From: a virus
Virus record (IMG/VR): IMGVR_UViG_3300004282_000002
Coordinates: 1-63,794 of that record
Reading direction: 5' to 3' (one strand)
DNA length: 63,794 bases
The notes beneath the pieces are model-generated. The model saw only the letters and a list, made by a program, of their open reading frames with translations. It searched no databases and had not been told where the DNA came from. Numbering within the stretch: position 1 is the first letter of the stretch; each line of letters opens with the position of its first letter. Below are positions 44,736 to 63,180 of this stretch, piece by piece. The translations under genes were made by a program, and so were the position numbers.

Positions 44736-44966
44736 CTATATCGTTCTAATATTTTTATTCAAAGCTCTTTTTATTCTATATCCCACATCATAAAAGGCAC
44801 TATAGTCGTGCCATTCTTTTTTAAAAGTCCATTCTTGATAATCTATCCATGATCCTCTTTGTGTATCATAATGTATCACATATGGTTCTCCTGTTGAATT
44901 TGATGTAGTTATATAGCCAGTAGTACTACTATTAGGTTCTATCCATTCATATATTCCACTACTCAT
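44736..44966 (-). CDS. Small protein with KTI-type C-terminal tail, last minus-strand gene
   Basis: 76 residues. The Tyr/Trp-rich body (GIYEWIEPNSSTTGYITTSN, YQEWTFKKEWHDYSAFYDVG) has no recognised family. It ends ALNKNIRTI, the tail shared with seven other small proteins encoded at 59.7-62.4 kb, although this gene is about 15 kb from them. It overlaps the upstream gene by 4 bases (ATGA) and ends in TAG before the shared terminator. Confidence 0.6.
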   Translation of the reverse strand: MSSGIYEWIEPNSSTTGYITTSNSTGEPYVIHYDTQRGSWIDYQEWTFKKEWHDYSAFYDVGYRIKRALNKNIRTI

Positions 44967-50337: not shown

Positions 50338-51362
50338 AATAACTCTATTTTCATGTTACCATTATTTTGTACTATTAGTCTTTCTGTAGAATAATACTGT
50401 GATTCCTTGTGGAACTTGTAATCTTCGACTAATTCCATGAAACCTCTTACTCTATCTCCACTAGAAGATACCCATCCATCAGCAAACTTATTAAGTAATA
50501 TTGTTGGCACTGTCCATATACTAGGAACTTCAGGTAATTTCTTACTTAGATAGATAAACTTGAAATCATTAATAGTGTAATCACCAAAGTCAGGATCATT
50601 ATTTATAATATACTGAATAGCTAATAGATATGATACCACTTGTAAATAATATTTATACTTATAAAATGGTGCCATAAACTTAGTTGGTAACTCAGCTCCT
50701 GTCTTTATATCTATTACCGTTATTTCTTTCTTCTTATGATCTATATTTAATAAATCTATCCTAGCTTTACCAGTAACACCCTTAAAATTATATCTCACAG
50801 AGGCTTGTTTTAGAACTTCAAATGTATCTGTTTCTATGAAATACTTATTAGTATATTCATGATTAAGTAATACCTTTGCACAATTCTCTGCCGATTCTAA
50901 CACTTCAGGAGAAACTATTATCTTACCTTTAGCTTCATAGCTTTCTTTTATGTAATCCCAGAATAATTGTACGTCATATTTAGCTTTTAATTTCTCTATA
51001 TCCTTTACATTATCCCATAATTTTAATTCTTTTATCTTATCTTGGATGTTTTCATGTGTCACGCGTTGTAATGTATCCTCATAGACTAGAATATCTAACA
51101 GGATGGCATCAGCGAGCTCTAGGAGCGACGCAGTAGGTTTCACTAGTGTCTTGGTCCAAAAGACATCATCCTTCCTCTCAGGGCTTGTAATGAGTATATC
51201 CACTAATGATCCAAATTCAAGTGCATCTCCACTTTTAGTGCTTTCTGTAATAAGAGATAACGGACCAGAATCATCTAATGCTTTTAATAATGAATAGCTA
51301 AAATCATCTAGATTTCTATATTCATCATCAGGTATAGTTAATATTTTTTCTTTAAATTTCAT
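50334..51362 (-). CDS. PD-(D/E)XK exonuclease (RecB/Cas4-like, DUF3799-type)
   Basis: 342 residues. LEFGSLVDIL at residues 48-57 resembles the first helix motif. The catalytic core is KARIDLLNID with D203, VIDIKTG with D218 and K220, and a downstream Q241xxSY motif (YLQVVSYLLA). This is the layout of single-strand-processing nucleases in phage recombination modules. It lies two genes from the RusA resolvase, so a replication or recombination role is likely. Overlaps its neighbours on both sides. Confidence 0.8.
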   Translation of the reverse strand: MKFKEKILTIPDDEYRNLDDFSYSLLKALDDSGPLSLITESTKSGDALEFGSLVDILITSPERKDDVFWTKTLVKPTASLLELADAILLDILVYEDTLQRVTHENIQDKIKELKLWDNVKDIEKLKAKYDVQLFWDYIKESYEAKGKIIVSPEVLESAENCAKVLLNHEYTNKYFIETDTFEVLKQASVRYNFKGVTGKARIDLLNIDHKKKEITVIDIKTGAELPTKFMAPFYKYKYYLQVVSYLLAIQYIINNDPDFGDYTINDFKFIYLSKKLPEVPSIWTVPTILLNKFADGWVSSSGDRVRGFMELVEDYKFHKESQYYSTERLIVQNNGNMKIELL

Positions 51363-51897
51363 TTACTGTTACTTTTTTAATTGTTGCTTCTCCTACAACT
51401 ATACACATATCTGAATGTGGCGTATTAGACATCCTTGCAACTAATATATCATTAATAAAAAACTTAATTCTTTCATTATCCCAATCAATAGTGTATTTAT
51501 TAAATGAATTCCTTAATTGCTCTATTAGTCTTTTGTTAGTTAACTTTACTCTTTGTATTTTACACCCAAATCTTTCATCAGGAACATTTATTAATGGATT
51601 CCAATAAGATGTAAAGTGAAGTGATATCTTATTATCCTTTTTCATTAGTTCAATATCAACTTCTGCATAGAATTTCTCAGAGTTAACAAGCCATAATGCA
51701 GGTCTAGATACATCAGTGAAGTTACCATCTAGCTTAGCTATATATGTAAATACTCCAAACTTTTTTTTAAAGGTGGTGAAATACCAAACATCGCTATTCC
51801 ATTGTCCATCGTTAAATGATGTGCTATAAAACACTTCCTTATAACTCTGTTTTCTTTTAATTAGAAATCTTAAATAAAATAGTAATTTTCTTATCAT
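51352..51897 (-). CDS. GH16-like (laminarinase/concanavalin fold) protein
   Basis: 181 residues. Residues 66-71 (PALWLV) lead to AEVDIEL with E79, D81 and E83, the ExDxE catalytic signature of glycoside hydrolase family 16. FNKYTIDWDNERIKFFIND at residues 132-150 matches the family's penultimate strands. No signal peptide; residues 4-20 are mildly hydrophobic and basic. Short for the family, which usually exceeds 230 residues. Position among replication genes is unusual. It may act on a cell-surface or intracellular glycan, or be a binding protein. Confidence 0.7.
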   Translation of the reverse strand: MIRKLLFYLRFLIKRKQSYKEVFYSTSFNDGQWNSDVWYFTTFKKKFGVFTYIAKLDGNFTDVSRPALWLVNSEKFYAEVDIELMKKDNKISLHFTSYWNPLINVPDERFGCKIQRVKLTNKRLIEQLRNSFNKYTIDWDNERIKFFINDILVARMSNTPHSDMCIVVGEATIKKVTVNEI

Positions 51898-51934: not shown

Positions 51935-52138
51935 TCATACAACTTTTACATTACTATTAATTTTACATTTTTCTTTTTTAAAATAACTCCATATAAGATC
52001 ACTATTAATATAGGCAGTGTCACCCCCATCCATATTAAATTCATGCTGTTTTTCTTTACGTGGAATAAGTGTATACTCCTTATTTTTTGTAATTATTCCT
52101 GAAAAATCATTTAGTCCTAGAACTTTCAATATTTTCAT
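51935..52138 (-). CDS. Small protein inserted between RusA and the GH16-like gene
   Basis: 67 residues. The body (MKILKVLGLNDFSGIITKNK, EYTLIPRK) resembles small SH3-like phage proteins. It ends INSNVKVV, a weaker version of the LNKNVKTI tail. It is coupled to the RusA gene by ATGA. The 37-base gap behind it contains a copy of the RusA 3' end, which suggests this gene was inserted there. Confidence 0.6.
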   Translation of the reverse strand: MKILKVLGLNDFSGIITKNKEYTLIPRKEKQHEFNMDGGDTAYINSDLIWSYFKKEKCKINSNVKVV

Positions 52139-53419: not shown

Positions 53420-54871
53420 CTAATTAATATCCTTATACATAACAACACCAGAAAGTTCATTCCTGATCTCATTAAGTCCTATACAGTCACCACTACTCTC
53501 ATCTAATCTTCTATTAAGCTTCCTGTCACTGATATAATTAGTGAGATAAGAAGCTAATTTGATATTAGAGAAAGCTGAGTCGATAACTTGCCTAAGTGTT
53601 AATCCTTTCATCTGAACAACATCAATATTGTCTTTATAAGTAATCTCTGCATATTTGATTATTGCAGAACATATGTAAAGCCAATTAATGATCTTGATAG
53701 GATCTTGTGTTGGAACATGACACCTGAATTCTATTGTCTTGTTATCTCCAAACAACAGAGGAATAAAATTGACCCAGTGATAACGCTCTACGATACCCCA
53801 TTTGTGATCATCATTAGGATCAGAAGGATGTGTGCTACCAAGTCCCTGATATTTTTTACCAGCACCAAGATAAAAAGCTATGTTATTGAATGTGTCATCA
53901 AGATTAAGCTCTACGAGCTCTTTCCTTAATGGCATATTATAATCCTTACCTCTTGGCTTAAACTTACTTGTCTTGGAATAATACGCTGGGAACATGGAAT
54001 ATATCTCATTCTCAAGGACTGAGCATAATGTATACAGATAAGCAATAAACTTTGTGTTAGTTGGTATATTACCTATGTGTAAATGCAAACTCTCATTTGT
54101 TGTGAAGTTAGTGTACTTTCTTAATGTATCACACATATCACTTACAGTATTCACACCATTCTGTCCCGATAATGGTAATGTGGCAAACTCTATGCCTTCT
54201 ATACTACCATCTCTCAATGGTAATAACCCAGAATCCAAGATCTTATAATTAGGTATCTTACCCCTATTGGTCTCAAATTCAATCCCAAAGGAATACTTAC
54301 CTATGACACCACCGTAATTAGCTATCTTAGGAGCTTTATTACCAAGGAATGTCTTATTTCTCAATCCCTCCTCAAACCTTTTCTTTATCCCGACATCATA
54401 ATGCTTACAACAATATGGCAACTGAAATGGATAACTGTTATTGTTAAATGTATAGGTAAAGACTTTAGAGCTCCTTTTCTTTAGACCAACATGATTAAAC
54501 ATCCCAGTAACAGCATCCTCATTGAATATAGCATCTGGTAATATCTTATAATCAATACAACTATACTGACTTCCATTAGGAAGATTAACCAATACATTTT
54601 TGTAAGGATCAGAAGAATAACTACCAAGTATAACCTCACTAGTGAGTGAGTCATAGCCTATAATCCCTTTTATGAGATTGGTGTTATCTTTAGCTACCAC
54701 CCATGTTCTCTTCTCATTATCGAAGATGATAAGGCCACTATTAACGCGATACCATGTATCGTTGATTAAGAAACATTGTTTGTTTTTAATATAATATTTA
54801 CCTTTTATGAACCTACAATCTTTCCTGAATGCTACTGATCCATCAAAAGTTTCTACTGTATTATGTATCAT
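53420..54871 (-). CDS. Amidoligase_2-type ATP-dependent COOH-NH2 ligase
   Basis: 483 residues. The glutamine-synthetase-like core begins near residue 190: FGIEFET (195-201), DGS (221-223), EFAT (228-231), LHLHIG (262-267) and TIEFRCH (near 390), the metal and ATP-binding pattern of the amidoligase family. An N-terminal region of about 185 residues of unknown function precedes it. Family members join a carboxyl and an amine in peptides or modified proteins. It overlaps the glutamine amidotransferase gene by 4 bases, so the two are co-translated. Terminator follows. Confidence 0.85.
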   Translation of the reverse strand: MIHNTVETFDGSVAFRKDCRFIKGKYYIKNKQCFLINDTWYRVNSGLIIFDNEKRTWVVAKDNTNLIKGIIGYDSLTSEVILGSYSSDPYKNVLVNLPNGSQYSCIDYKILPDAIFNEDAVTGMFNHVGLKKRSSKVFTYTFNNNSYPFQLPYCCKHYDVGIKKRFEEGLRNKTFLGNKAPKIANYGGVIGKYSFGIEFETNRGKIPNYKILDSGLLPLRDGSIEGIEFATLPLSGQNGVNTVSDMCDTLRKYTNFTTNESLHLHIGNIPTNTKFIAYLYTLCSVLENEIYSMFPAYYSKTSKFKPRGKDYNMPLRKELVELNLDDTFNNIAFYLGAGKKYQGLGSTHPSDPNDDHKWGIVERYHWVNFIPLLFGDNKTIEFRCHVPTQDPIKIINWLYICSAIIKYAEITYKDNIDVVQMKGLTLRQVIDSAFSNIKLASYLTNYISDRKLNRRLDESSGDCIGLNEIRNELSGVVMYKDIN

Positions 54872-56724
54872 ACGTTTAATTCTTTAAGTTTGTTATTTGC
54901 TTCAATTAAAATTTCATGTTTGTCTTTTACTAGATGAGCATATCCTGATATTTCTACTTCGTTGATAAGGCTTTCTAGATCATCCAATATAGGAGCTACT
55001 TCAGATCCTATTGTATGATATAAGCTTACGAGTATATCAGAATTGTCTTCTATGTTACTTTCTTTTTCGGTAGGAGTTTCTGCTGGTAAAGTACATTCTC
55101 TACATTTACTACCGTCTTTATAGAGATTTTTGTCAACACATTCCATACAGGATTTTATCTCTATGATATCATCCTTAGACTCTGGTTCTTTTTGTTTAGC
55201 AACTTTTCGTTGTTTACCAAAATCCATTGCGCTTAGATATTCAAATTCCTCAAGTAGATCGGCAAGGGTATATGTTGACCCAAGTCTTTCATAACCAATA
55301 CAGTCTCCCTCTTTAAAGTGAAGCTCTAAGTCTCCAAACGGTGGACTGAATGACCCACAGAAGAATGTCTCATTAGCAAAAGCTTTGTCGTTAGTGAAAA
55401 TAGCTGTCTGTTCCATGTAACCAGATGATGACTTATCAATCCTTCTAGTGTATGGCAACAATGCATTAGAATACAATATATCTGACATCCTTGAGAATAA
55501 AGCTCTGTCATAGAACTCTTCAGCATTTTTTATATGATATAGCTTAGCTTGTATATCTACTTGATCATAAGCATCGCTACTATACAATAATATCCCATAG
55601 TAGAAATACAGAAAATGTACCCCTATATGCTTTTCATATTTGTCCCTTATGTATCCCCATGTGTCTACAGTAACCTCACCATGAACAGGCACGTCATTTA
55701 ATAAAAACCATCCTTTGTCGTATCTGATACGATCTTTAGTGTTTACATTTATTAATGGTTTTATATCACAACAACATATATTATTCGTTAATCCTAGTGT
55801 TAATAATCTGTTTTTTGTATTGAGATTAACTGGTTTACTGTTGAATGGTATTTCATTTTCGGCAGAGCTATTCCAATAAGTATTTCTATTAACTTCAGTA
55901 TATTTTCTTAACACTGACTTCTCCCTGTCTATCTTCATAAATTCCTCTACACTATCACCCTGTAGCTTATACACTACATTATATTTAAAAGATGTGGCTT
56001 TATCTCCATTAGCTATCCACTCAAGAGGAGATGCTTCTGATGATATATACGTGCCAGATCCTTTTATTTGAACGTAATGTAACGGTCTCTCTTCAGTTAA
56101 TGTAGAATAGTTTTTTGACTCACCATGAAAAGCATACAACACATTAGGCTCTTTAATGAAATGTATCACCAATGCTGCACTACCCTCATATTCATTGAGT
56201 ATCTTAAATCCTTCTTTTTGTATTAGTTTTGACATTGTCACACTATCACTCTCATCGGTACTAACGGTGATGTTGTACTTAGTTGCCAACTCCTTATGGT
56301 TAGTTATTGTACCATTATGAGCTTGAACATATACCAACTTATCATCCTTTATAGTCCTTAGTAGTACTGGCTGTATGTTAATACTTGTCACGGCACCTAC
56401 CGATGCTTTCCTACAATGACCAATCACTATAGGCCATTTCCCAGGTTTTACTGTAGTGTGTAGCCTATGAGATTTTATTAGTGACTCATATTTAGCATCT
56501 GTACCTATTCCTGTTATCACTCCCCTATTGAAATACACACCACACGAATCGCCTCCACGACTATCATTCTGAGTACCTAGGAAGTTGAAGAGTAATGGTG
56601 AAAACTCACTAGAGGCATTACCTGTCCATGCAAATATGCCACAATTAAAACAAGATAATTTTTTCTTAAATAGAAAGTTATATATTAAACTTATTAGCAT
56701 TATTAATAGTAGCGCATTATACAT
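54868..56724 (-). CDS. Class II glutamine amidotransferase (Ntn hydrolase) with extra domains
   Basis: 618 residues. The GAT-II core shows Cys28 in CGIFAW, DSRGGDSCGV (54-63), GHCRKAS (102-108), AHNGTITNH (135-143) and TDESDS (156-161), so it can free ammonia from glutamine. Cys28 must become N-terminal for activity; a 27-residue hydrophobic extension (residues 2-18) precedes it and may be a cleaved propeptide or a membrane anchor. Residues 200-500 are of unknown fold. CMECVDK (C526, C529) and KCRECT (C541, C544) form a zinc site. It is flanked by the two amidoligase-type genes, suggesting ammonia or amide transfer in the same pathway. Confidence 0.85.
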   Translation of the reverse strand: MYNALLLIMLISLIYNFLFKKKLSCFNCGIFAWTGNASSEFSPLLFNFLGTQNDSRGGDSCGVYFNRGVITGIGTDAKYESLIKSHRLHTTVKPGKWPIVIGHCRKASVGAVTSINIQPVLLRTIKDDKLVYVQAHNGTITNHKELATKYNITVSTDESDSVTMSKLIQKEGFKILNEYEGSAALVIHFIKEPNVLYAFHGESKNYSTLTEERPLHYVQIKGSGTYISSEASPLEWIANGDKATSFKYNVVYKLQGDSVEEFMKIDREKSVLRKYTEVNRNTYWNSSAENEIPFNSKPVNLNTKNRLLTLGLTNNICCCDIKPLINVNTKDRIRYDKGWFLLNDVPVHGEVTVDTWGYIRDKYEKHIGVHFLYFYYGILLYSSDAYDQVDIQAKLYHIKNAEEFYDRALFSRMSDILYSNALLPYTRRIDKSSSGYMEQTAIFTNDKAFANETFFCGSFSPPFGDLELHFKEGDCIGYERLGSTYTLADLLEEFEYLSAMDFGKQRKVAKQKEPESKDDIIEIKSCMECVDKNLYKDGSKCRECTLPAETPTEKESNIEDNSDILVSLYHTIGSEVAPILDDLESLINEVEISGYAHLVKDKHEILIEANNKLKELNV

Positions 56725-57562
56725 GAATTGTTTTATTAGATGTAATTAATTGCTTATCCCATGTTATACCTAGTTGCTTATAGAAATGTGAATTGAAGGT
56801 AAACAAACCACCTTTGAACACAATCTCTGGCTTAGCAAGATATAGCAAGTTAAATAGATTCTCTTCGTCCTGTATGAATTCTATGGATTTCAATGTTTGA
56901 TCAAACACCCATGATAGATATTTCTCATCAACAAAGAAACCACCAAGACTTCTACACTCTAGACCATATGATGTATCTCTGTATTGCCCTAGGCCACCAT
57001 AGTTCTCAAACCTACGTTTATCAACATGTATAAGACATGATGGTATGACTACAAACACATCGAATGCTCTTGCAAGGATAGTGTTGATAGTCTCTCTTGA
57101 CCATATAACATCCTTCTCTATATCATAGCCAACGTGAATATGAAAGCCAGCAGTCCTAAAGTCTTCTGTAGATAGGTCATTAGCCCTATGAGATAGATCA
57201 TCCCACGCATTGAGATAGGGGCTACAGCCAAACAGCATAGCCTCAGGATGAGACAAGAATGCTGTGTTTATGTTAAGACAATCGGAATGATGAAGACCTA
57301 ACACAGGATATTTATCTTTTATATATTTTGTTATTCGGGATTTCAACTCTACCATCTTCGAGATAAAGTCTTCTTTTGTTGTCACTGGTGGCATGTTACC
57401 TTCAGCAAGGATATTATCCTTCTGTATGAAATAACCATCACCTAGAGCTTCAGGGCTCTCTTTTGTTCCATTTATAATTGGTATGGATGACACAATCATT
57501 CCTGTTGATTCATTCTTGATGAAATATTCAGGATCGCTTCCAAATGTTAAGTTGTTTATCAT
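56717..57562 (-). CDS. phiEco32-like COOH-NH2 ligase type 2
   Basis: 281 residues. Motifs: GSDPEYF (8-14), AEGN (53-56), GFHIHVG (139-145), YGGLGQYR (188-195) and GLECRSLGG (200-208). These match the phage COOH-NH2 ligase family related to glutamine synthetase and gamma-glutamylcysteine ligase. It would form an amide bond with ATP. It overlaps the amidotransferase by 8 bases and the unknown gene upstream by 4 bases, so it belongs to one co-translated cassette. Confidence 0.88.
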   Translation of the reverse strand: MINNLTFGSDPEYFIKNESTGMIVSSIPIINGTKESPEALGDGYFIQKDNILAEGNMPPVTTKEDFISKMVELKSRITKYIKDKYPVLGLHHSDCLNINTAFLSHPEAMLFGCSPYLNAWDDLSHRANDLSTEDFRTAGFHIHVGYDIEKDVIWSRETINTILARAFDVFVVIPSCLIHVDKRRFENYGGLGQYRDTSYGLECRSLGGFFVDEKYLSWVFDQTLKSIEFIQDEENLFNLLYLAKPEIVFKGGLFTFNSHFYKQLGITWDKQLITSNKTIHV

Positions 57563-58497
57563 ATATCGAATGTCGTTCTTTTGTTTACTCCAGTTGGTAA
57601 TATAAGATCTATCTTTACTTGTTTTAGATCTGTTGATAGTAACAGAGGAACATTTTTGTCCATAGCTGCACTAAGATAAGATATCTCTTTTATTAGTTTA
57701 AGGTATACACTTTTCATCTCAAGATAATCTTTGCATATGAGTCTCAGGTTATTTCTCATTGAGCCAGGAATCTCATCCACTCTTAACACACCTATTAACC
57801 TTGCTATTATCTCTTTAGCCTCCAATATTACCTCAACATCACTAAAGAATGATCCTGTTATCTTAACCTTAGGATTAAAATATATTGGATACTTATAAAA
57901 TACCGTGTTGAATAATGTATTAGATTCTAACTCTTTTAGTATAACACTAAATGGCCTGAAGAATAGTAATCCCTCTATCTCGCTTGTTCGCATTGGCAAT
58001 ACAGCCCTACTCTCAGTCTCTTGGAATGAAAATGCTATAGCAAGAATATCCATAGGATCATCAAGTAACTCTAACCTATAGAGATTAGTGGCTATGATAG
58101 CCATGTTGGTATAATGCTGATACCATAGATATCTCATGGTATTATAAGCTACATTGAAATATTTATTAGATGTCAGTTTATCCGATGATATTCTTATTAC
58201 TATAAGATCTTCAGGTGTATATTTACAGCTAGTGTAATTGATATCTTTTCGTTCTTCTTCTGTAGCTACTGAGTAGTTTATGTTATAAGCTTTTGTTATA
58301 AGCTCCATATAACTATCGAGATTATTTTCAATAAAGAAGAATTCGTTCATCTCAACAGTAGGTATGCCTACATACATCACATGGCTATAGCTAAACCTAT
58401 CCCTAAACAGATTGCCAAGACTCTCACAGCAATCGTATGAGATAAAGCCATGTTTTGCTGATTTACTTGGTTTTGAAAATATTATACTATTTTGCAT
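57559..58497 (-). CDS. Unknown protein of the amidoligase cassette
   Basis: 312 residues lying between the ligase and the ATP-grasp genes, overlapping both. Visible segments: SAKHGFISYDCCESLGNLFR, LPMRTSEIEGLLFFRPFSV and VKITGSFFSDVEVILEAKE. Helix-rich C-terminus. No known family recognised. The fixed position suggests it is a partner, scaffold or substrate-handling part of the pathway rather than an unrelated gene. Confidence 0.6.
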   Translation of the reverse strand: MQNSIIFSKPSKSAKHGFISYDCCESLGNLFRDRFSYSHVMYVGIPTVEMNEFFFIENNLDSYMELITKAYNINYSVATEEERKDINYTSCKYTPEDLIVIRISSDKLTSNKYFNVAYNTMRYLWYQHYTNMAIIATNLYRLELLDDPMDILAIAFSFQETESRAVLPMRTSEIEGLLFFRPFSVILKELESNTLFNTVFYKYPIYFNPKVKITGSFFSDVEVILEAKEIIARLIGVLRVDEIPGSMRNNLRLICKDYLEMKSVYLKLIKEISYLSAAMDKNVPLLLSTDLKQVKIDLILPTGVNKRTTFDI

Positions 58498-59290
58498 TAC
58501 TATATTTGTTTATTAATACTTTTCTTATCTCTTCTCTATACTTAGCTATTCCTTCTTCAGCTAATGCTGGAGCTGAATTAACTTCGCATACTATAAACTG
58601 TGATGGGTCTTTAGAAGACACTCTTATATCTACACAACCAATATCGAGCCCAACACTGCGTATGGAGGCACTCGCTGCATTACACAGATCTTTCCAATTT
58701 GTGGGTTTGTCGAATAATTCATGGTTTTCTCCCACCCAATTACAGTTATGGGAGTTGAAAAACCATCTATCTTCAGCGTCACTCTTCCTGAGCTTTCTCC
58801 AGGACAAAAATACTTGTGTCTGCGTAGCATGTAGTCTGTACTCTCTCCCATAATTATAAAATAACTCTATAAAGAAATACTGTGGCGTATGTGTCCTACA
58901 AAAATCCATAAGTTGTGTATCATTCTCAATGAGTACCATTCCCTTTCCTTGAAAGCCACAAATAGCTTTCCCAACTAACTGATATTCCTCACTCTTGTTG
59001 ATACCAAAATGTCTTTTTATAGCTTCTACGTTGAATACTCCATGATAATACCTTGCTTGTGGTATACGTGCTTCTTCAAAACACCTTTTCATCCTAAGCT
59101 TATCTCTAGAGTTTTCTATTGATGTTATCGTGTTACACTCTAGGACGCGTCCTCCACGAGGAAATACTACTGAGGTAGGTGTTCTACTACCTAGACGACA
59201 TACTGCCAGAAATGGCACGAGAATAGCCTTACGTAAAGGATTTGATGATGGATTCTTAGTCCTTATGCGAACAGTTCTTTGTTTATACAT
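58487..59290 (-). CDS. ATP-grasp ligase (RimK-like, phage type)
   Basis: 267 residues. ATP-grasp features: GKGMVL (115-120) loop, E142 in FFIELF, REYRLH (149-154), WRKLRK (165-169) basic patch, D221 in CVDIRV and E236-V-N238 in CEVNSAP, which bind ATP and Mg. Family members add amino acids through an acyl-phosphate, as RimK does to the C-terminus of ribosomal protein S6. It shares one base with the cyclotransferase stop (59290) and overlaps the unknown gene by 11 bases. Confidence 0.85.
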   Translation of the reverse strand: MYKQRTVRIRTKNPSSNPLRKAILVPFLAVCRLGSRTPTSVVFPRGGRVLECNTITSIENSRDKLRMKRCFEEARIPQARYYHGVFNVEAIKRHFGINKSEEYQLVGKAICGFQGKGMVLIENDTQLMDFCRTHTPQYFFIELFYNYGREYRLHATQTQVFLSWRKLRKSDAEDRWFFNSHNCNWVGENHELFDKPTNWKDLCNAASASIRSVGLDIGCVDIRVSSKDPSQFIVCEVNSAPALAEEGIAKYREEIRKVLINKYSNAK

Positions 59291-59679
59291 TATTTTACTT
59301 TATATTTACGCCAACTTATTACTCCATTCTCATCTTGTGGTACAAGCCTATCATCAGAATATCTCCGTCCACTAGCTAACACATATATCTCAGAAGCGCC
59401 AAAAGGTGTCTCTATTACTCTCTTATCATAGAATGAAGGATAACCTTCTAATCTCTCTATTGAACGATATACCTTATCTGATACCTCATATGTCTCAACA
59501 AGAATCTTATTTGTTACACTCTCATCTTCTATGAGACCGGGGAATCCTCCTAGTGATACCATGACAAGATTATCCTCTAGAATATGTTCACCTAGCTTTT
59601 GTGATTCACTATTGTTAAGATGCCAATGCCAATTACCAAAACCTTCTAATAGACTTCCATAAACTGTTACTTTCTTCAT
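59290..59679 (-). CDS. Gamma-glutamylcyclotransferase-like (AIG2/GGCT) protein
   Basis: 129 residues. VYGSL (6-10) binds the substrate carboxylate, GGFPGL (44-49) and ERLEGYP with the predicted catalytic Glu78 follow. The family releases 5-oxoproline from gamma-glutamyl amines or peptides, so it may trim or recycle products of the neighbouring ligases. It starts in an ATGA overlap with the preceding small protein. Confidence 0.85.
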   Translation of the reverse strand: MKKVTVYGSLLEGFGNWHWHLNNSESQKLGEHILEDNLVMVSLGGFPGLIEDESVTNKILVETYEVSDKVYRSIERLEGYPSFYDKRVIETPFGASEIYVLASGRRYSDDRLVPQDENGVISWRKYKVK

Positions 59680-60032
59680 ATTGTTTTTACATTTTTATTT
59701 AAAGTGCAATTAAAAAACATCTTTTCTATTGATTTTTGAGATTCAATAGAATACATATTTATATCCCTACTTATCACAAAATCATTATTTGTTTCGTTAC
59801 CACCTATGAAACAAGTTATTCTACGTGGTAGTCCAGATAATCTTAACTCTGGAGTATTGAGAGAACGTATTTTTACCTCCATATCACCCCTTATCTCAAT
59901 TCCTATATCATCAGTATTAATTAAATCATCTGGAGCCTTATTGCTAGAGAATATTAATCTACTCTTATCGAGTGTAAGCCTTAAACCTAACTGAGGATAT
60001 TGTTTATGTAATAATTTTATTGATTTGCTCAT
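59676..60032 (-). CDS. Beta-rich small protein with LNKNVKTI tail
   Basis: 118 residues from the ATG at 60032; a further upstream ATG at 60062 would overlap the primase gene more. The body (LGLRLTLDKSRLIFSS, IGIEIRGDMEVKIRSLNTP, LRLSGLPRRITCFIGG) looks beta-rich and has no recognised family. It ends TLNKNVKTI and its TGA overlaps the cyclotransferase ATG. It directly links the tail family to the amidoligase cassette. Confidence 0.6.
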   Translation of the reverse strand: MSKSIKLLHKQYPQLGLRLTLDKSRLIFSSNKAPDDLINTDDIGIEIRGDMEVKIRSLNTPELRLSGLPRRITCFIGGNETNNDFVISRDINMYSIESQKSIEKMFFNCTLNKNVKTI

Positions 60033-60984
60033 GTAATATTTTCTTAGATTGTTTTTGTCCACAATGCCACACTAGATCAGAGATATCCTTTGCTTGTGTG
60101 ATGAATATATATGGTAATCCCCATCGCTCTGATAATTTATTATTAGCAATCATCCCAGTTTCATCGGAGTCCATAAATAAAATAATATTCCTCCATCTAC
60201 TCTGATGCTTAAGCATGTATTGTTCTGGTACAAAGGTAGTTTCAGATGTTGGAGCAATAGCTGTGTAGCCTAACTCATAGAGAGTCATGACATCTTTTAA
60301 TGATGATGTGATGATAAGAAGATCTCCTTCTTTAGGCAACATACCCTCTCCCTGTACTATGAGACCACCATTGCTATACCACTTATGTACAGACAATGGT
60401 TGATAGATTTTCCTTCTAAAGATATCTTTTTCCCAATAGTATTCATAGCTATAAGCTAATGGATCAGCAAAATATATGTGATCATTAATAGTAAAGTGAG
60501 ATATTGGAACAACACCAAACCTATCAATAGTGCTCTTTGTTATACAATACCTACCATACCAATAGAAATCATCATTGACTGTCCACTCTCTACGTCTTAT
60601 TTTTATTATAGATGTTGCCTTCTCAGATATAATAGGATCTTCTACTTGAAGACTAGGCTCTATTACCTTATATACATGATTGATATCACCTAATCCAAGA
60701 TCAAAATCATCATTTATCTTATGTAAAGCATCACTGAAAGATAGATGGAAGAGCTCCATCACAAAGCTTATAGCCCTATAGCTACCTCTACCAAAATCCT
60801 TAAAAAGAAGATCGCCATTATAATGTATAATAAAAGAGCTAGGGTGAATATCGTCATCACGTAGCGGAGATTTGAATGGTTTACCCACCTCTTTAAACCC
60901 ATCGCAGTATCTCCTAAATATCTTGTAGCTACTAACCCTTTCAAGGATAGCCTCTTTAGTAAGTTCTCTGTGTATTCCATACAT
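60004..60984 (-). CDS. DNA primase with CHC2-like N-terminus and Toprim domain
   Basis: 326 residues. Residues 26-70 (SPLRDDDIHPSSFIIH, LLFKDFGRG) resemble the primase N-terminal zinc region without its cysteines. The Toprim domain has LIITSSLKDVMTLYELG, where the usual Glu of the first motif is Ser, IILFMDSDETG with D272 and D274, and KDISDLV. This variant is common in Bacteroidota phage primases. It would prime replication. It starts directly behind the TAA of the upstream small gene. Confidence 0.8.
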   Translation of the reverse strand: MYGIHRELTKEAILERVSSYKIFRRYCDGFKEVGKPFKSPLRDDDIHPSSFIIHYNGDLLFKDFGRGSYRAISFVMELFHLSFSDALHKINDDFDLGLGDINHVYKVIEPSLQVEDPIISEKATSIIKIRRREWTVNDDFYWYGRYCITKSTIDRFGVVPISHFTINDHIYFADPLAYSYEYYWEKDIFRRKIYQPLSVHKWYSNGGLIVQGEGMLPKEGDLLIITSSLKDVMTLYELGYTAIAPTSETTFVPEQYMLKHQSRWRNIILFMDSDETGMIANNKLSERWGLPYIFITQAKDISDLVWHCGQKQSKKILHEQINKIIT

Positions 60985-61278
60985 TTATATTGTTTTTACA
61001 TGTTTTGGTAATTTTTCTATTCTATTTTTGTTATTACGATAATAATCAAACCAATCATAATGAAGAGTATTCCAACTTATCCCAGGGAAGTCAGCCCATC
61101 CAAAGGCTCTAGATATATATACATCTGTATGACGATCATTAAGATATTCATCTACAGAGATATTAATATCTCCACGATAACGATTGCCAGCAAGGGAATT
61201 AAAAGCATGATAATACGCATCATAGGCTCCATTTTGCTTTAAGAATTTATTAAAAAGCCTTATGTCTTTTGCTCTCAT
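60985..61278 (-). CDS. Small protein with LPKHVKTI tail, paralogue of the next gene upstream
   Basis: 97 residues. The segments IRLFNKFLKQNGAYDAYYHA, DVYISRAFGWADFP and HYDWFDYYRN match the layout of the 61275-61595 protein. No known family. It ends KLPKHVKTI, with TAA directly before the primase ATG. It overlaps the upstream gene by 4 bases. Confidence 0.6.
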   Translation of the reverse strand: MRAKDIRLFNKFLKQNGAYDAYYHAFNSLAGNRYRGDINISVDEYLNDRHTDVYISRAFGWADFPGISWNTLHYDWFDYYRNNKNRIEKLPKHVKTI

Positions 61279-61595
61279 ATTGTCTTCACATTTTTAGATA
61301 ACTCTAAAGTACAATTCCATTTGCTAGGATGATCCTTTGTATCTCTATATAATTTATTTGATAGATCGAACCAGTCTATATGTGGATTGCCTATATCATC
61401 CCAAACAAAGGCACATGATATCCAATCAACAATAGGTATCTCTCTGTAATAGTCATATAACTCCGTAGGCCATTCACTATTTTCTCTATATTCAATACCA
61501 TATCCTGAACCAAATCCAATATAGAATAACTCAAAAGATTTATGTTTAATAAGAAAATTCTCAAACATATTTATTTGCTTATATATCTTTCTCAT
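61275..61595 (-). CDS. Small protein with LSKNVKTI tail
   Basis: 106 residues. NMFENFLIKHKSFELFYIGF, VDWISCAFVWDDIG and HIDWFDLSNKLYRD parallel the 60985-61278 protein, so the two arose by duplication. It ends ELSKNVKTI. Overlaps ATGA with both neighbours. Confidence 0.6.
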   Translation of the reverse strand: MRKIYKQINMFENFLIKHKSFELFYIGFGSGYGIEYRENSEWPTELYDYYREIPIVDWISCAFVWDDIGNPHIDWFDLSNKLYRDTKDHPSKWNCTLELSKNVKTI

Positions 61596-61792
61596 ATAGT
61601 CTTTGTATTTTTATTCAACATACCAGGAGTTCTAATAAATCTTTTTGTGAATAAAGAAACCCTAAGGCTCTTATCATTTACTATTCTATATTTAGGATAA
61701 TGCTGTGATCCACATTTCTCTATTACTTCATATATCTTACCAACAGTGATGTGCATACTAGCACCCAGATTATCTATACATCTGACTCTCAT
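61592..61792 (-). CDS. SH3-like small phage protein with LNKNTKTI tail
   Basis: 66 residues. CIDNLGASMHITVGKIYEVI and YRIVNDKSLRVSLFTKRF match a common small phage beta-barrel family with unknown function. It ends MLNKNTKTI. Related to the 62004-62204 protein in the body and identical in the last eight residues. Confidence 0.65.
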   Translation of the reverse strand: MRVRCIDNLGASMHITVGKIYEVIEKCGSQHYPKYRIVNDKSLRVSLFTKRFIRTPGMLNKNTKTI

Positions 61793-62007
61793 ATTGTTTT
61801 AATATTTTTAGGCAATTCATTTATAGCTTTGTAGATATACAAATATTTATCTCTATCAGATTTATGTGTATCAGGATTATTCCATAGACATGATGGTGCA
61901 AGTGAAGCTCTTAGATTCATGCAATCAGCAAATGCAATATGTTTAGATTTATTAAAACAACAACCAACACATGTTTTATGTTTTTGCTTCACTAATTTGT
62001 ATTTCAT
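61789..62007 (-). CDS. Cys-rich small phage protein with LPKNIKTI tail
   Basis: 72 residues. The cysteine pattern KTCVGCCFN, ADCMNL and APSCLW suggests a zinc site and matches a frequent, uncharacterised small phage protein type. It ends ELPKNIKTI and overlaps ATGA with the SH3-like gene below it. The body is unrelated to the other tail-bearing proteins. Confidence 0.65.
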   Translation of the reverse strand: MKYKLVKQKHKTCVGCCFNKSKHIAFADCMNLRASLAPSCLWNNPDTHKSDRDKYLYIYKAINELPKNIKTI

Positions 62008-62204
62008 ATAGTCTTAGTATTTTTATTCAACGTATTAGGAGCTATCTTAAATCTAGATGACCAGAAAGACTCTATACAACCATTATCGCTCTTAACTCTA
62101 TATAAGCAACCGAATGGATCTTCTTCTATTTTTAGTAACTCATATTTCTTACCATTAGTAAGACTTCTGAGTTCATCATTAACACATATCACATATTTCT
62201 TCAT
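62004..62204 (-). CDS. SH3-like small phage protein with LNKNTKTI tail
   Basis: 66 residues. ICVNDELRSLTNGKKYELLK, YRVKSDNGCIESFWSSRF is the same small beta-barrel family as the 61592-61792 protein. It ends TLNKNTKTI. Coupled by ATGA on both sides. Confidence 0.65.
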   Translation of the reverse strand: MKKYVICVNDELRSLTNGKKYELLKIEEDPFGCLYRVKSDNGCIESFWSSRFKIAPNTLNKNTKTI

Positions 62205-62428
62205 ATAGTCCTTATTTTTTTGTTGAGGTTGAATTTTATATGAAAATAATTAGATATAGAATCAAGCTGAAAAGAAAACATAATGTTTTTTTCACACATA
62301 ACAGATATATAACTGTTTTTTGCTCTTAATATCTTATAGGTATTTCCTTTTATGAAATATTCTCTAAGAACAGGAATACTTTTAGAATCCTTTTTATAAA
62401 TTAATATCTGACCTTCTCTATATTTCAT
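62201..62428 (-). CDS. Small beta-rich protein with LNKKIRTI tail
   Basis: 75 residues. YREGQILIYKKDSKSIPV and FIKGNTYKILRAKNSYISVM resemble the SH3-like family, more distantly. It ends NLNKKIRTI. First gene after the tRNA-like element; no promoter is visible before it, so it is probably transcribed by readthrough. Confidence 0.6.
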   Translation of the reverse strand: MKYREGQILIYKKDSKSIPVLREYFIKGNTYKILRAKNSYISVMCEKNIMFSFQLDSISNYFHIKFNLNKKIRTI

Positions 62429-62571: not shown

Positions 62572-63180
62572 TTAAAAAGGGAGATCGTCCTCCTTTTTCT
62601 TATTAGGAGTGATGGTTAAACCATCATCCTTCTTATCTTCATCCATGGCTATAGCCACAGGAGTAACCTTATCATACTCTGTTATCTTCATCTTAGTATT
62701 CTCGTCAGAGATAAGACTAGGATCTTCAAACATAGTAGGCCACGTAGGTAAAGTTGGTCTATTTTTCTTATCATAGACTAACTTAATACGCAACTCTTTC
62801 TTATGATAAGACTTGCCTATGTCAGCAATAATCCTATTACAGAACTCTCCAAATGACGCTACAGGCCCAGTTTCATAACTAGGTGACAATAACACATTAG
62901 TGAGATTCTTCATAGTCCTATTGAACTTATCAAGCTCCTTATCAAACGCAGCCTTGTCAGGCACATACATAGAACCAATTTTATTTGGGGGGAAATAAGA
63001 TTTTCTAGCCACACAATTGTTTTTGTCTACTATCTCAACGTTTAACCATTCTGCCTTATCGGTCTTACGATATTCAATCTTATTGATATACCGTCCTCTA
63101 CTAATAGCATTATCTTTAGTTACAACAATTGGAAGTAAACCTCCATCACCACTCTTAATTCCATATTCACTCATACGCAA
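62572..63180 (-). CDS. SSB-like single-strand DNA-binding protein
   Basis: 202 residues. Residues 30-150 are beta-rich (RGRYINKIEYRKTDKAEWLN, KKELRIKLVYDKKNRPTLP), consistent with an OB fold. The acidic C-terminus ends KKKEDDLPF, the DDLPF-type tip that SSB proteins use to recruit partners. Likely coats single strands during replication and lies directly before the replication genes. Fold assignment is by appearance. Confidence 0.65.
   Translation of the reverse strand: MRMSEYGIKSGDGGLLPIVVTKDNAISRGRYINKIEYRKTDKAEWLNVEIVDKNNCVARKSYFPPNKIGSMYVPDKAAFDKELDKFNRTMKNLTNVLLSPSYETGPVASFGEFCNRIIADIGKSYHKKELRIKLVYDKKNRPTLPTWPTMFEDPSLISDENTKMKITEYDKVTPVAIAMDEDKKDDGLTITPNKKKEDDLPF

Follow-up and report, generated by a model that had tools for sequence, protein, structure and literature searches.

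Short C-terminal tags common to unrelated proteins are already known from encapsulin cargo peptides, degrons and the tips of single-stranded DNA-binding proteins (SSB). More generally, a disordered, conserved C-terminal peptide carried by unrelated small domains is what a short linear motif with a single reader typically looks like. A peptide apparently of this kind is found at the end of small early genes in a crAss-like phage contig of 63,794 nucleotides, hereafter the window (the whole stretch of DNA that was analyzed).

The tail of these genes resembles the encapsulin cargo-loading peptides in being short, C-terminal and present on unrelated proteins, with one partner, here putative. However, its sequence is different, and it is found on genes of a replication operon with no encapsulin shell identified; the related contig G001, considered with an HK97-fold shell in mind, encodes a phage major head protein. 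Like ssrA-type and other C-terminal degrons, the tail presents a free hydrophobic C-terminus on diverse proteins, but it is gene-encoded and basic and ends neither in -LAA nor in -AA. The SSB C-terminal tip (DDLPF-type) is also a disordered docking peptide, and the SSB-like protein of this phage itself ends DDLPF, whereas the tail is basic and Lys-rich, lacks the acidic stretch followed by PF, and is carried by many non-SSB proteins. Similarly, the capsid-targeting sequence of T4 internal proteins is a short tag common to several small phage proteins, although in T4 it is N-terminal and cleaved. Finally, carboxylate-capable ligases adjoin the tail cluster, as in the RimK/COOH-NH2 ligase operons of phages (phiEco32 type, phi14:2), but these ligases are also present in tail-less relatives. 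Searches of open-access papers (subscription literature being outside the scope) turned up no account of such a tail, in agreement with the initial annotation, which had raised it as a possibly undescribed tag. This holds for the tail sequence, for its presence on numerous small early proteins of a phage and for its restriction to a clade.

The Tail in the Window

Nine small leftward genes end in the consensus [L/I]-x-x-[N/H/K]-[I/V/T]-[K/R]-[T/V]-[I/V]-stop (Table 1). The initial annotation had listed seven genes at 59676-62428 plus one at 44736-44966, and each of them does carry the tail right at its stop codon. A ninth gene, 51935-52138, had been added with the divergent ending INSNVKVV; it is a proper member, since tails of G001 such as LNSNIKVI, LSSNIKVV and LNKNTKVV bridge the two forms. 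For the gene at 59676-60062, the ATG at 60032 is the more likely start, in preference to a GTG that overlaps the primase.

The DNA pattern AARMAYRYNARRACNATA has seven matches in the window against 0.03 expected from dinucleotide shuffles, all of them in frame and at gene ends, and the peptide pattern has no internal copy among the 20,379 residues of the window ORFs. Among the small ORFs, 30 pairs have similar last 8 residues (including at least one pair not made of tails) vs none at both control positions. Counting the window and three related contigs (G001/L009, L109, and L110), 25 tails are known; their last residue is always I, V, or L, and Glu often directly precedes them.

Table 1. Tails and neighboring genes of the window, in the order of the leftward operon.
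Feature	Coordinates	Strand	Remarks
ssDNA-binding-like protein ending DDLPF	62572..63180	(-)	Upstream neighbor of the cluster, untailed
Tail LNKKIRTI + stop	62201..62227	(-)	Gene 62201-62428, 75 aa
Tail LNKNTKTI + stop	62004..62030	(-)	Gene 62004-62204, 66 aa; SH3-like barrel whose predicted fold excludes the tail
Tail LPKNIKTI + stop	61789..61815	(-)	Gene 61789-62007, 72 aa, Cys-rich family
Tail LNKNTKTI + stop	61592..61618	(-)	Gene 61592-61792, 66 aa, SH3-like
Tail LSKNVKTI + stop	61275..61301	(-)	Gene 61275-61595, 106 aa
Tail LPKHVKTI + TAA	60985..61011	(-)	Gene 60985-61278, 97 aa; next ATG after the stop, no overlap
Crassvirales-type DNA primase	60004..60984	(-)	Untailed
Tail LNKNVKTI + stop	59676..59702	(-)	Gene between primase and cyclotransferase; probable start 60032
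Gamma-glutamyl cyclotransferase (GGACT/AIG2-like)	59290..59679	(-)	Context gene, untailed
RimK-like ATP-grasp ligase	58487..59290	(-)	ExN motif intact
COOH-NH2 ligase type 2 (PF14395)	56717..57562	(-)	
Class II glutamine amidotransferase	54868..56724	(-)	
Amidoligase_2-like	53420..54871	(-)	Just below the Pfam cut-off; positional counterpart in L112 above the cut-off
Tail INSNVKVV + stop	51935..51961	(-)	Gene 51935-52138; ATG of its ATGA opens a 4-codon frame only, no gene
Tail LNKNIRTI + TAG	44736..44762	(-)	Gene 44736-44966, last of the leftward operon; no gene starts behind

Relatives with and without the Tail

The initial annotation had proposed that the tail be sought in other phages, and it was found in three contigs. 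In IMG/VR, a scan with a degenerate DNA pattern gave one contig with multiple matches, a crAss-like contig of 35.6 kb (G001/L009). It has 14 tailed small genes, located upstream of the replicative helicase, with endings such as LNKNIKTI, LSKNIKVI, LNKNTKVV, and LSSNIKVV. Two short contigs carry one tail each, INKNIRVL in L109 and LNPKIKVI in L110, and their helicases are 78 and 80% identical, respectively, to that of G001. The group belongs to the Crassvirales: the primase is at about 36% to Suoliviridae, the helicase matches those of crAss phages, and G001 carries TerL, portal and head families.

Among 2,841 C-termini of other loci, a tail-profile score of 9 or more was reached in L109 and L110 only. 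Some 100 further crAss-like loci gave no above-chance match, and the tail is also missing from Cellulophaga phage phi14:2; a general feature of crassviruses was rejected on these grounds. Scans based on the primase and on the SSB yielded no additional close relatives. Because the tail is confined in these searches to the window, G001, L109, and L110, it is apparently restricted to a single narrow clade, within the collections searched. In a further contig (L028, primase identity 58%), two genes after the primase end TLHKNIILL and KLNNSIFIL, which are possibly worn versions of the tail; BLASTP shows no homology between the 59676 gene and its positional counterpart in L028.

Other candidates were discarded. 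The lone DNA-pattern matches in viral contigs L004-L008, L010-L013, and L176-L179 and in genomes L157-L175 were chance-like, with few at ORF ends and no recurrence within a contig. An apparent second shared tail, GREEKYNN in L116, turned out to belong to a tandem paralogue family: four overlapping paralogues of about 140-170 aa lie at L116:3745-5541, three of which end G[RK]EEKYN[NS].

Several other features of these contigs were recorded. Genes for tRNA are found at L109:5483-5556 (Met), L110:4984-5058 (Met), and L028:5413-5488 (Val), in each case after an SSB-like gene and immediately ahead of the small-gene or primase position. The tailed SH3-like gene L009:8039-8242 has a single in-frame stop mid-gene, due to decay or sequencing error. 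Upstream of the G001 helicase, L009:10400-11047 encodes a Peptidase C26/class I glutamine amidotransferase, with similar-looking proteins in L109-L112.

Selection on the Peptide or on the DNA

The initial annotation had argued from synonymous variation that selection acts on the peptide. Such variation is indeed seen for Leu (CTC/TTG/TTA), Thr (ACA/ACT/ACG), Lys (AAA/AAG), and Arg (AGA/AGG). Compared with a column-shuffle null, the amino acids are much less diverse than expected in the true frame (entropy z = -14.0 for frame 0; the two shifted frames give -1.0 and -5.6), the value of -5.6 probably reflecting in part a common descent of the tails. The substitution ratio, for which a frame-shifted control had been suggested, agrees: pN/pS is 0.45 in frame (bootstrap 0.38-0.53) and 0.89 and 0.62 in the shifted frames. 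Base identity at codon positions 1, 2, and 3 is 0.62, 0.71, and 0.50, and third bases mostly follow the codon usage of each genome. It had also been foreseen that related phages might keep the DNA and lose the frame; the opposite is observed, as the relatives keep frame and peptide while the DNA varies. Together, these patterns point to selection on the peptide itself.

A nucleotide-level element, such as an initiation context, a coupling signal or an operator of the next gene that incidentally encodes the tail, is very unlikely as the main explanation. In its favor, 22 of the 25 tails (which are possibly kin by descent, their counts not being independent events) end in ATGA, the region is A-rich, and the codon of Lys3 is AAA in 19/19 copies. 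However, the tail is missing at 14 of the 31 ATGA junctions in the window and G001, and at four tails (44736, 51935, 60985, and L009:4546) no overlapping gene follows. Moreover, the free third positions depart from the start-context rule described in Flavobacterium johnsoniae, where A at -3, -6, -12, and -13 promotes initiation in Bacteroidetes (PMC6847099). Before the next start, the tails have A at -13 in 95% of cases, T at -12 in 73%, A at -3 in 50%, and A or G at -6 in 59 and 41%; at -12, ordinary starts have A in 59%. The codon signal is also far weaker out of frame. A start-context or coupling signal as the main cause was thus rejected on the free third positions, the tail-less junctions and the tails with no gene behind, and so was a DNA repeat or recombination junction, given copies in frame, synonymous variation and the much stronger true-frame signal. 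A secondary nucleotide-level constraint is nonetheless likely, because Lys3 is always AAA against the preference of these genomes, in which AAA and AAG are about equal overall and AAG is preferred 2:1 before Asn; Lys6 has no such bias.

Protein Bodies Carrying the Tail

Among the bodies, two families are alignable, one SH3-like (A7) and one Cys-rich (A8). Identity is 17% in the body vs 52% in the tail for the former, and 27% vs 57% for the latter. When the two profiles are compared with hhalign, the last 10 columns alone align (E = 2.7e-5), which upholds the earlier view that the bodies are unrelated. In an AlphaFold model of the SH3-like protein, the predicted fold stops before the tail: the barrel has a pLDDT of about 92, and the last residues have 54 and no secondary structure. 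The prediction for the Cys-rich family was of low confidence and was left out. No confident Pfam match was found for the bodies of 59676, 60985/61275, 44736, and L009:2140.

These patterns bear on ancient paralogy, under which all tailed proteins would be one old family with the tail as its slowest-evolving part. Consistent with this, tailed SH3-like members recur in all four contigs. However, the SH3-like and Cys-rich profiles have nothing in common beyond the tail, and small SH3-like proteins of other phages match the tailed bodies and are tail-less, a homologue from a Klebsiella phage having a different C-terminus. Common ancestry of all the bodies is therefore quite improbable.

Gene Context and the Ligase Operon

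The leftward operon runs from the SSB-like gene through the primase to the tailed gene at 44736. A set of ligase genes sits directly behind the tail cluster within this operon and comprises the cyclotransferase, the RimK-like ATP-grasp and COOH-NH2 ligases, the class II amidotransferase and the amidoligase. The stretch from 53420 to 59679 resembles the ligase operon of phi14:2, with an additional unassigned gene at 57559-58497. In phi14:2, the same set is found in nearly the same order and the tail is missing, so the ligase set does not need the tail; L112 and L151 have parts of the set and are likewise tail-less. The presence of ligases thus does not track that of the tail. Their co-occurrence is seen in the window alone because the G001, L109, and L110 contigs end before the ligase locus. 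Elsewhere in the early leftward operon, 51352-51897 encodes a Glycosyl hydrolase family 16 domain (E = 9e-10).

A Putative C-Terminal Recognition Tag

Selection on the tail peptide suggests that one common partner recognizes it. On sequence grounds, the reading that we favor, with a probability of about 0.68, is that the tail marks accessory proteins for recognition at their C-terminus by a putative common partner. The terminal 8-10 residues, [E]-L-x-K-N-[IVT]-K-[TV]-[IV]-COOH, would act as a short recognition peptide, an extended and unstructured end on small accessory proteins whose bodies are unrelated (among them SH3-like barrels and Cys-rich domains). One partner, from the phage or from the host, would read the free C-terminus and would probably bind it as an added beta-strand. 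All tailed proteins may in this way be given one fate or location, by docking, turnover, packaging or C-terminal ligation.

More specific forms of recognition, among them the degradation, packaging, protease or ligase tag raised in the initial annotation, are each less probable. The tail might be the acceptor for the phage's own C-terminal ligases, with the RimK-like ATP-grasp and COOH-NH2 ligases extending its carboxylate by amino acids or a peptide. The adjoining ligase set in the same operon, the most suggestive of the neighbors, and the intact ExN motif are consistent with this, and there is a precedent in RimK, which attaches Glu to ribosomal protein S6; for phage ATP-grasp ligases, protein modification has been proposed (PMC4431377). 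As the tail is missing from phi14:2, which has the whole set, and from L112 and L151, which have parts, this form is unlikely, and it remains speculative to regard the RimK-like ligase as a candidate reader or modifier. The broader idea of a protein-tagging system, in which a genomic tag on unrelated early effectors would be read and perhaps extended by these ligases, is a little more doubtful still. It is just as unlikely as a ligase acceptor that the tail is a degron, its hydrophobic free end being read by a host protease that clears early proteins after take-over: such a role would suit the disorder predicted for this C-terminus, its hydrophobic, beta-branched residues and the small early proteins that carry it, but the ends are unlike those of ssrA type (-LAA), and different bodies would all need an equally short life.

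The encapsulin and T4 signals, to which a packaging or ejection tag might be likened, have another sequence or another position than the tail. Tailed proteins that travel in the virion and are injected would have a parallel in crAss001, whose virion contains several MDa of cargo proteins (PMC10172136). However, the tailed genes sit among replication genes and away from virion genes, and together with the differing signals this makes packaging highly improbable.

Implications for Small Early Phage Proteins

Most of the small proteins that phages make early lack annotation, and they vary between phages. A recognition tag that marks one functional group of them would allow its members to be collected by sequence, and their partner to be caught with one synthetic peptide. 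Should a host protein turn out to read the tail, this would reveal a shared target or route of host take-over; should one of the neighboring ligases do so, the tail would suggest a substrate for that enzyme set.
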